Below the pieces are notes generated by a model, which searched no databases, was not told the DNA's origin, and saw nothing but the letters and a program-made list of their open reading frames with translations. Positions 6,617-9,766 of a stretch of DNA of 32,623 bases are shown one piece after another. Source of the stretch: Sphingobacteriales bacterium (GTDB lineage Bacteria > Bacteroidota > Bacteroidia > Sphingobacteriales > Sphingobacteriaceae). The first letter of the stretch is position 1; the number at the start of each line of letters is the position of its first letter. The stretch is from positions 1-32,623 of the forward strand of contig RDYW01000054.1 in NCBI GenBank assembly GCA_004293485.1. Direction: 5' to 3'. The translations under genes and the position numbers were made by a program.

Positions 6617-8548
6617 ATGATTAAAATTACCCTTCCCGATGGTTCGATAAAAGAATTTGAACAAGGAATTACTGCACACCAAATTGCTTTATCTATATCC
6701 GAAGGCTTGGCCCGCAATGTATTGGCTGCCGAAGTTGATGGCCAAACTTGGGATAGCAACCGCCCAATAACCGACGATGCCATTGTTAAATTACTTACGT
6801 GGAATGATGCTGGTGGTAAAGCTACTTTTTGGCATTCATCGGCTCATGTATTGGCCGAAGCATTAGAAGCCTTATACCCAGGCACTAAATTTGGTATTGG
6901 CCCCGCTATTGAAACTGGTTTTTATTACGATGTTGATTTTGGCGACCACGAAATATCGTCCGACGATTTTAAACGTATTGAAGATAAATACTTAGAATTG
7001 GCAAGAGCCAAAGCCGAATTTTCCCGTACAGCGGTAACAAAAGCCCATGCCATAGATTATTTTACCCTTAAAGGGGATGAGTATAAGTTAGATTTGATTA
7101 AAGACTTACCCGATGGCAGCATAACTTTTTACCAGCAAGGCAACTTTACCGATTTATGCCGAGGGCCACACATACCTAATACCAGTTTTATAAAAGCGGT
7201 TAAACTAACCAATATTGCGGGTGCGTATTGGCGTGGCGACGAAACTAAAAAACAACTAACCCGTATTTATGGCGTAACTTTCCCTAAACAAAGCGAACTT
7301 ACCGAGTATTTACTGATGATAGAGGAAGCCAAAAAACGCGACCACCGCAAGTTGGGTAAAGAGCTGGAATTGTTTACGTTTTCGGATAAAGTAGGTATGG
7401 GCTTACCGCTTTGGTTACCCAAAGGAACGGCTTTGCGAGAGCGATTGGTATCGTTTTTACAAAAAGCACAACAAAAAGCAGGTTACGAACAAGTAATTAC
7501 GCCACATATTGGGCATAAAAATTTGTACATCACATCGGGCCATTACGAAAAATATGGTGCCGATGCTTTTCAGCCGATAAAAACACCACAAGAGGGCGAA
7601 GAATTTTTTTTAAAACCAATGAACTGCCCACACCATTGCGAAATTTATAAATTTAAACCACGGTCGTACAAAGATTTACCCATTAGGTTGGCCGAGTTTG
7701 GTACCGTTTACCGTTACGAGCAAAGTGGCGAATTACACGGCCTTACCCGTGTACGTGGTTTTACGCAGGACGATGCGCATATTTTTTGCCGCCCCGACCA
7801 AGTAAAAGATGAGTTTAAAAAAGTAATTGATTTGGTATTATATGTTTTTAAAGCTTTAGGATTTGAAAACTATACCGCACAAATTTCATTACGCGACCCA
7901 GCCAAAAAAGCAAAATATATAGGTAGCGACGAAAATTGGCATCTATCTGAAACTGCCATTATTGAAGCCGCCGAAGAAAAGGGCTTAAACACGATTACCG
8001 TTTTAGGCGAAGCCGCATTTTATGGCCCTAAATTAGATTTTATGGTTAAAGATGCCTTGGGGCGTAAATGGCAATTAGGTACCATACAGGTTGATTATAA
8101 CCTACCCGAACGTTTTGAACTGGAATACACGGGTAGCGATAATTTAAAACACCGCCCAGTGATGATACATAGAGCACCTTTTGGTTCGCTAGAACGTTTT
8201 GTAGCTGTATTGATAGAGCATTGTGCAGGTAATTTTCCGCTTTGGTTAATGCCCGAACAATTTATTGTATTGCCAATTTCAGAAAAGTACGAAGAATATG
8301 CAAAAAGTGTTTTAGATTCACTAAATAATAACGATATTTGCGGGCTTATTGATTTGAGGGACGAGAAAATTGGTCGTAAAATTAGAGATGCAGAAATCAA
8401 AAAAATACCTTATATGATAGTTATAGGGGAAAAAGAAATGCTAAGTGGCATTGTTTCTGTAAGAAAACATAGTGAAGGAGATATAGGAGAAATGACGATT
8501 GATGCGTTTGCAAATCATTTAAAGCAAGAAATAAAAATTAGTAATTAA
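6617..8548 (+). CDS. thrS: Threonine-tRNA ligase ThrS
   Basis: It charges tRNA-Thr and edits Ser-tRNA-Thr. The protein is 643 residues, full length. An N-terminal TGS domain ([20 protein letters not shown]) is followed by the editing domain with H73-x3-H77 ([18 protein letters not shown]). The class II catalytic core shows a zinc site that includes C337 in [11 protein letters not shown], motif 2 around [26 protein letters not shown], and motif 3 [13 protein letters not shown]-terminal anticodon-binding domain ends the protein. It opens the conserved thrS-infC-rpmI-rplT cluster, with the infC coding region starting 12-15 bases after its stop. Confidence 0.98.
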
Positions 8549-8552
8549 AACT

Positions 8553-8557
8553 GGAGG
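8553..8557 (+). promoter_or_regulatory. Perfect Shine-Dalgarno GGAGG of infC
   Basis: GGAGG lies five bases past the thrS stop, six bases before ATC 8564 and three before ATT 8561. SD sequences are rare before genes in this phylum, and the other genes here show AT-rich leaders instead. This site therefore stands out and fixes the infC start region. Confidence 0.8.
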
Positions 8558-8563
8558 ATTATT

Positions 8564-9118
8564 ATCAGACCAAAATTAAACCCGAATAGAGCAAGAAGAG
8601 TTACCGAACCACTGCACAATATCAATAAGCGTATTAGAGCTAAGGAAGTTAGAGTTGTTGGGGAAGATATTGAGCAGGGGATTTATCCCATAGAAAAAGC
8701 CTTAGAAATGGCTATTGAAATGGATTTGGATTTGGTAGAAATTTCGCCTAACGCTATACCGCCTGTTTGTAAAATTGTTGATTATAACAAATTTGTTTAC
8801 GAACAAAAGAAAAAGCTAAAGGAAATAAAATCGAACGCTAAGCAAACGGTAATTAAGGAAATACGATTTGGCCCTAATACCAGCGACCACGATTTTCAGT
8901 TTAAGCTAAAACACGCCGTGGCCTTTTTAGAAGCTGGCGAAAAAGTGAGGGCTTACGTTCACTTTAAAGGCCGAGCAATTGTTTACAAAGAGCAAGGAGA
9001 AATTTTACTTTTAAAATTTGCCCAAGCCTTAGAAGATGTAGGTAAAGTAGAATTACTACCTAAATTAGAGGGTAAACGAATGTTTTTAACAGTAGCACCT
9101 AAATCATTAAAAAAATAA
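8564..9118 (+). CDS. infC: Translation initiation factor IF-3, non-ATG start
   Basis: IF-3 binds the 30S subunit, prevents 50S joining and checks start codon and initiator tRNA. Homologous sequence starts right after the thrS stop: [20 protein letters not shown], then [32 protein letters not shown] and the C-terminal domain with [24 protein letters not shown] and [13 protein letters not shown]. The frame between the thrS stop and this block is AAC TGG AGG ATT ATT ATC, with no ATG, GTG or TTG. The first ATG (8708) would delete the conserved N-terminal domain. The start must be ATC 8564 (six bases after GGAGG) or ATT 8561. E. coli infC uses AUU and is autorepressed through it; the same logic is inferred here. 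Length is about 184 residues. Confidence 0.95.
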
Positions 9119-9144: not shown

Positions 9145-9345
9145 ATGCCAAAAATGAAAACCAATTCCAGTGCCAAAAAGCGTTTTTCGCTTACTGGAAC
9201 CGGTAAAATTGCAAGAAAAAGTGCTTATAAAAGCCACATTCTTACCAAAAAAACCACCAAACAAAAACGTAACTTAACTAAAACTAGTTACGTATCGGAT
9301 GGTGATATGGGCAATGTAAAGCGTATGCTTTGCATTGGAAAATAA
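9145..9345 (+). CDS. rpmI: 50S ribosomal protein L35
   Basis: A 66-residue basic protein of the large ribosomal subunit. It begins [20 protein letters not shown], the invariant L35 opening, and continues with the Lys/Arg-rich [20 protein letters not shown] and a tail with the usual (M/V)KRML. It follows infC by 26 bases in the conserved infC-rpmI-rplT order. The spacer after it (9346-9421) can fold into a hairpin that may regulate the downstream gene. Confidence 0.97.
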
Positions 9346-9421: not shown

Positions 9422-9766
9422 ATGCCACGTTCGGTTAACGCAGTTGCGTCAAGAAGAAGAAGAAAAAAAATCCTTAATATGGCCAAAGGCTATTGGGGAT
9501 CCAGAAGCAAGGTTTACACCATTGCTAAAAACACCGTTGAAAAAGGTTTACAATATGCCTTTAGAGATAGAAGAGTAAAAAAACGCGAATTTCGCTCGTT
9601 ATGGATTCAACGTATTAATGCTGCCACTAGGCAATATGGCATTTCGTACAGCCAATTTATTGGTAAAGTAGCTGCCAAAAATATTGGTTTAAACCGTAAA
9701 GTATTGGCCGATTTAGCAATGAATCATCCAGAAGCTTTTAAAGCCGTTATTGAGGCTGTAAAATAA
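9422..9766 (+). CDS. rplT: 50S ribosomal protein L20
   Basis: A 114-residue basic protein needed for early 50S assembly. It starts [20 protein letters not shown], and contains [37 protein letters not shown] and a C-terminal globular part ending [12 protein letters not shown], all typical of L20. It is the last gene of the thrS-infC-rpmI-rplT cluster and is closed by a long perfect terminator hairpin at 9785-9830. L20 is a known autoregulator of this operon in other bacteria. Confidence 0.97.

Follow-up and report, generated by a model that had tools for sequence, protein, structure and literature searches.

Where does translation of infC begin in a genome of the Bacteroidota when the gene has no ATG, GTG or TTG codon ahead of its conserved N terminus, and what is a GGAGG doing in front of it? 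The question is raised by the infC gene of the window, by which we mean the whole stretch of 32,623 nucleotides analyzed here. The frame from 8549 to 9118 encodes translation initiation factor IF-3, with matches to PF05198, PF00707, and TIGR00168 that are all above cutoff; numbered in the frame that opens at 8549, Pfam IF3_N covers residues 25 to 92 and IF3_C residues 101 to 185. Since thrS and infC lie in one reading frame, infC can extend no further upstream than the thrS stop. After it the codons read AAC TGG AGG ATT ATT ATC AGA CCA, and no ATG, GTG or TTG occurs in the infC frame between the thrS stop and 8708. The sequence is as the original prediction gave it, both for these codons with their GGAGG and for the cost of beginning at 8708, which it had put at about 48 residues: counted from the ATC at 8564, such a start loses 48 codons and cuts into IF3_N. 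The features of the locus are collected in Table 1.

Table 1. Features of the infC locus, in positions of the window
Feature	Coordinates	Strand	Basis and remarks
thrS	6617..8548	+	TIGR00418, PF00587 and others; ORF list; its TAA (8546-8548) bounds infC upstream, in the same frame
Shine-Dalgarno sequence GGAGG	8553..8557	+	Present in 17/17 genus members with infC; -9.3 kcal/mol against the 16S tail of relatives
6-nt spacer ATT ATT	8558..8563	+	In the genus, constant in length and variable in sequence
Inferred start codon ATC	8564..8566	+	Genus members: ATC 5, ATT 11, ATA 1 (n = 17)
infC (IF-3, 184 aa plus stop)	8564..9118	+	PF05198, PF00707, TIGR00168
First in-frame ATG, rejected as start (within IF3_N)	8708..8710	+	Sequence, ORF list, domain match
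rpmI (L35)	9145..9345	+	Downstream of infC, same direction
rplT (L20)	9422..9766	+	Downstream of infC and rpmI

We searched 18 genomes of the window's genus and found infC in 17 of them, one having no match. GGAGG followed by 6 nt and an ATH codon (ATA, ATT or ATC) is present in all 17, and the spacer is always 6 nt long. When the 17 sequences are aligned with the GGAGG motif as anchor, agreement in the spacer columns goes down to 8/17, and in the 12 nt upstream of GGAGG it ranges from 9/17 to 17/17. The first codon after GGAGG varies among ATT, ACC, ACA, CCG, ACT, ATA, and AAT; the second is ATT or ATC in 16 of the 17 and CTT in one (L241); the third is the ATH codon of Table 1. Because this third position alone is occupied by a start-type codon throughout the 17, the infC start of the window is most likely ATC 8564 and not ATT. 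The original prediction had left the choice between ATT and ATC; its rare AUH start stands, and the relatives sharpen it to one codon. Five genus members, the window among them, have no NTG ahead of the domain. Four codons past the AUH codon there is TTG in 12 members, TTA in 4 (including the window), and ATT in 1, and we rejected this TTG as a genus-wide start since it is not conserved. Sequencing error was rejected as an explanation, as the arrangement recurs in 17 genomes. The same TTG bears on the expectation that automated gene callers will truncate the protein: an ORF list confined to ATG, GTG, and TTG does begin infC of the window at 8708, but in the 12 members with TTG the truncation would be slight.

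The GGAGG of the window pairs with the 16S tail of relatives, AUACCUCCUUUCU, at -9.3 kcal/mol, a value equaled or bettered by 30 of 2,000 random 20-mers from the window; among 12 other genes of the window, the strongest pairing is -5.2 kcal/mol. Over the 17 genus members the infC pairing runs from -9.3 to -11.9 kcal/mol. This is within the limit for a strong Shine-Dalgarno (SD) sequence (-7 kcal/mol or lower), our values coming from another program and another tail stretch than those of PMC9976891, and short of the extended pairing of the rpsU type (below -13 kcal/mol). The 16S search of the window's own assembly gave no match, and the tail was taken from relatives; it ends in GGAATACCTCCTTTCT in all four genomes read (two genus members and two other members of the family) and keeps CCUCC. 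Traced through a 16S family search, the tail reads GGAATACC, which is why a first tail pattern found nothing in the 18 genus genomes or in the window's genome. As a background, we counted GGAGG 4 to 9 nt ahead of the first ATG over 400 kb of the complete genome of one genus member. It occurs at 2 of 306 ORFs of at least 100 aa, or at 3 of 306 when any NTG within the next 40 codons is also accepted, and seven control motifs in the same 400 kb give 0 to 2 ORFs each; in the window it occurs at none of 21 ORFs. GGAGG ahead of genes is near chance in the sampled genome, with no general use. An Rfam scan of the window returned no family at gathering score. The fold of the infC start region is weak (z score of 1.04, with 170 of 200 shuffles at least as stable), and we therefore claim no structural element.

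We investigated infC starts at 302 Bacteroidia loci, comprising 141 from a class sample, the window, 44 from the family, 14 from the genus, 25 from a phylum sample, and 77 named loci. The named loci come from the best 80 of 589 matches, and the 25 phylum-sample loci were drawn from a list ranked by E value and lean to good matches. No match was found in 6 of 149 genomes of the class sample, 2 of 51 of the family, and 19 of 395 of the phylum. Five rows were dropped, L032 (the same as L001), L242 (a partial second match in G575), and the duplicates L263, L270, and L281; G485, with a split gene, was left out, and L148 stayed in and was counted as having no start. Within the class sample, some infC matches were split over two pieces (G482 and G485) or carried in-frame stops (G449, G503, and G467).

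GGAGG is present in the region examined at 99 of the 302 loci. In the interval 4 to 9 nt after the first GGAGG, 89 ATH codons are in frame and 8 are out of frame, both other frames taken together; no in-frame NTG occurs there. These are counts of codons, and one locus may count twice. Control motifs gave, in frame and out of frame, 3/2 for GAGGG, 1/2 for AGGGG, 0/0 for GGGGA, 0/2 for CCTCC, 0/0 for GGTGG, and 1/1 for GGCGG, and motifs that overlap the SD sequence also score (GGGAG 8/1, GAGGA 59/8, and AGGAG 56/14). A second rule, which picks the start partly with the help of the SD sequence, places 92 loci in a class with GGAGG and an in-frame ATH codon 4 to 9 nt on, and none in a class with GGAGG and NTG; the loci without GGAGG have NTG (139), only ATH (70), or neither (1). 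By codon, the 92 loci divide into 52 ATA, 22 ATT, and 18 ATC, and 49 of them have no NTG at all ahead of the domain. At least one such locus is found in 26 of the 62 coded families, and by genus majority the arrangement holds in 36 of 128 coded genera. Loci placed in the NTG class are not all secure, since at 9 of them an ATH-GCN pair lies upstream of the NTG and, judged from the sequence, may be the true start.

Since the loci are related, these raw class counts are not independent and are descriptive only. Independent pairs on the 302-locus tree, with the SD-aided coding, came to only 5 supported pairs, with a mean of 3.6 agreeing and 0 opposing (P = 0.125 at best); a coding made without the SD sequence gave no signal (1.6 agreeing versus 1.1 against). 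Outside Bacteroidia, the strict GGAGG arrangement was found at 1 of 30 loci, the best-scoring ones of the phylum sample. When the rule was relaxed to GAGG, GGAG or AGGA 3 to 10 nt ahead, the same 30 best-scoring loci gave ATH at 16, TTG at 2, and nothing at 12; the 16 comprise 11 ATC and 1 ATT where no NTG was available and 2 ATA and 2 ATT where one was.

The Flavobacteriaceae (coded f4 or named) show the rare codon by itself. The first ATH-GCN pair stands without GGAGG at all 39 of their loci, as ATAGCA (35), ATAGCC (3) or ATCGCA (1), so the rare start and the SD sequence are separable and such a start does not need an SD sequence. An AUA start lacking an SD sequence in this family would be remarkable by itself. 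The codon preceding the pair is GCC at 20 loci, GTC at 10, ACC at 4, and another at 5 (for example, L244, L255, L275, L279, and L293). The whole-genome SD screen described in the available part of PMC9976891 covered Flavobacteriales, the order in which our own infC loci from Flavobacteriaceae have no GGAGG.

In Sphingobacteriaceae, the family of the window, infC lacks GGAGG and has an NTG, mostly as TTG GCA TTA (for example, L033, L064, and L265), in 19 of 23 coded genera, which makes the arrangement dispensable. We built a family tree of 70 rows and 12 outgroup rows from the ThrS and IF-3 pieces. The window's genus (g1, 17 rows), with GGAGG and ATH, is sister to a 43-row NTG clade without GGAGG, with TTG in those rows of the clade that were inspected. 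Three further genera with GGAGG and ATH (g255, g261, and g269; 8 rows) branch outside these two groups, and so does g258 (2 rows, TTG, without GGAGG). The tree requires 2 SD changes in all, a count that is itself blind to gain versus loss; the deciding forks have SH-aLRT values of 81 to 93, none starred, and the outgroup rows are heterogeneous as well as long, with GGAGG and ATH in 7 of 12. From these sequences we lean toward GGAGG with AUH as the older state of the family, and so toward retention rather than recent gain. The pattern fits replacement of this state by TTG, with loss of GGAGG, along the branch leading to Pedobacter, Mucilaginibacter, and Sphingobacterium. The nearest named relative of the window, among the best 80 of 589 matches, is Pedobacter glucosidilyticus DSM 23534, at 91% identity; the start region of its infC matches that of L063 exactly.

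Judged by these sequences, close relatives seem to keep or drop GGAGG and the rare start together. The original prediction held that the arrangement had been kept in the phylum; the family tree leans weakly that way, but the 39 Flavobacteriaceae loci separate its two parts. Alignment across Bacteroidota, which it proposed as a check, finds GGAGG with the rare codon throughout the genus and in 92 of 302 loci of the class, but not in most genera of the family. The contrary evidence that it named, relatives in which an ordinary start stands without GGAGG, is thus real for 19 of the 23 coded family genera and absent from the window's own genus.

Rare starts are familiar in infC of other bacteria. 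The E. coli gene has an SD sequence and follows thrS. It starts with AUU and is under autocontrol by IF-3, as stated in the available part of PMC5472188. Both it and the window gene encode IF-3 and have an AUH start, AUU in one and AUC in the other; the feedback, described for E. coli, is proposed for the window gene. Unlike E. coli infC, the window gene belongs to a class with a reportedly sequestered anti-SD and to a genus whose sampled genome makes no general use of GGAGG. According to the accessible sections of the respective papers, infC of Staphylococcus aureus, a species that relies on SD motifs, has an AUA start with an extended SD sequence and Ribo-Ret density (PMC13009471), that of Streptomyces starts with ATC (PMC5472188), and that of Bacillus subtilis is stated to start with AUU (PMC1805508). 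All three share the rare AUH start with the window gene, and the S. aureus gene shares the SD sequence as well. Ribosomes of Streptomyces and B. subtilis read SD sequences. Rare infC starts with an SD sequence are already known in other phyla; the novelty here is that they have persisted where the anti-SD of the class is reportedly hidden. Judged from titles and the first lines of abstracts, our limited literature set contained no paper dedicated to the infC start in Bacteroidota, and the term infC is absent from the text available of PMC9976891, PMC6847099, PMC8710568, and PMC10783764.

We consider it likely that SD-anchored initiation at AUC 8564 with feedback by IF-3 is the best explanation of the locus. 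A 30S subunit anchored by the SD sequence would start infC at this AUC, with GGAGG pairing with CCUCC of the 16S rRNA tail and placing the AUC in the P site. The AUC would pair imperfectly with initiator tRNA and would thus tend to be rejected by subunits loaded with IF-3. At low IF-3 levels it would be accepted, raising IF-3 synthesis and closing a homeostatic loop like that of E. coli infC. We infer the use of the AUC, the SD pairing in the cell, the rejection by IF-3, and the feedback, the autoregulation of the window gene by analogy with E. coli. What the sequence offers in support is the frame, the GGAGG, the spacer constant at 6 nt in the genus, the AUH codon, and a GGAGG that stands before AUH and not before NTG, to which the lean of the family tree toward this arrangement as the ancestral one adds weakly; with the frame closed by the thrS stop and no NTG ahead of the domain, no other start fits. 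Ribosomes of Bacteroidia are reported, in the part of PMC9976891 available to us, to fail to recognize SD sequences, so a 5-bp SD sequence may do little on normal ribosomes.

The same facts could reflect compensation without regulation, GGAGG rescuing an inherited weak start under selection for low IF-3 output, with no feedback. This would account for a GGAGG that precedes AUH and never an NTG at the loci read and that has disappeared from the family's 43-row TTG clade, but AUH persists over much of the class though one base change gives a common start, and mere rescue does not explain why Flavobacteriaceae keep AUH without GGAGG; we regard it as unlikely. Somewhat less likely again is that ribosomes finishing thrS mainly deliver the translation of infC, the SD sequence and the rare codon being secondary. 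The short distances from the thrS stop, 4 nt to GGAGG and 15 nt to the ATC, suit such coupling, but across the genus GGAGG keeps a constant distance to the ATH codon and a variable one to the in-frame stop upstream.

Initiation at ATT 8561 or ATT 8558 instead of ATC 8564 is improbable. Both codons are in frame and are legal rare starts, the position of 8561 is ATT or ATC in all but one of the genus members, and 15 in-frame ATH codons lie 3 nt behind GGAGG class-wide, probably the second codon of the window's own genus. The spacers from GGAGG would be only 3 nt and 0 nt, however, whereas in-frame ATH codons class-wide peak at spacers of 5 (38), 8 (27), and 6 (16); the 8561 position is CTT in L241, and that of 8558 takes seven codons across the genus. 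A downstream start in actual use, with the upstream reading accidental, is scarcely credible, whether at ATG 8708, where the mechanical ORF list begins infC but IF3_N is cut, or at CTG 8612, which would keep IF3_N whole but whose position is occupied by CTG in 4 of the 17 genus members and by GCT in 13, as upstream of both lies an SD sequence at a spacing fixed in the genus.

With initiation at AUC 8564 as the preferred reading, a class reported not to recognize SD sequences nevertheless has, at the infC loci read, GGAGG only before AUA, AUU or AUC. These loci form a natural set of relatives, with AUH plus an SD sequence, AUA without one, and TTG or ATG without one. Such a set allows a direct test of two questions, what maintains a canonical anti-SD in Bacteroidia and whether autocontrol by IF-3 is of enough value to be retained. 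The infC starts of Bacteroidia are liable to be miscalled, so SD surveys that use annotated starts may miss infC.

In Bacteroidia the 16S 3' tail is held by bS21, bS18, and bS6, and rpsU of Flavobacterium johnsoniae is autoregulated through an SD sequence served best by 30S subunits with the anti-SD free and bS21 missing, according to the available part of PMC9976891. This system and infC of the window are both SD-bearing genes for translation components in Bacteroidia. They differ in that rpsU combines an ordinary start with an extended SD sequence (-18.7 kcal/mol for rpsU of the window's genome), and infC a rare start with a 5-bp GGAGG (-9.3 kcal/mol); the regulator is bS21 for rpsU and would be IF-3 for infC. 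By analogy, infC might join rpsU (bS21) and rpsR (bS18) as SD genes best served by 30S subunits that lack bS21 and have a free anti-SD, a suggestion that we put forward tentatively and think doubtful. If it is true, the supply of IF-3 would answer two signals, IF-3 shortage through the AUC and the state of the platform through GGAGG.

Tyr54 of bS21 is kept in 16 of 16 genus members. GGAGG lies 10 to 13 nt ahead of the rpsR ATG, a long spacer, in 5 of 6 genus genomes (L379 and L381 to L384), and L380 has GCTGAGG in its place. The full extended SD sequence of rpsU is present in 2 of 16 genus members, the window's genome included; the other 14 have GGTGG instead of GGAGG, and the two of these whose pairing was calculated still reach -14.6 and -14.7 kcal/mol. 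The extended SD sequence GAAAGGAGGTATT is that of the rpsU loci L377 (G000:C11, in the genome of the window) and L378. A CCTCC lying immediately before it could cover it in a 5-bp stem of the predicted fold, with a z score of only -0.83.
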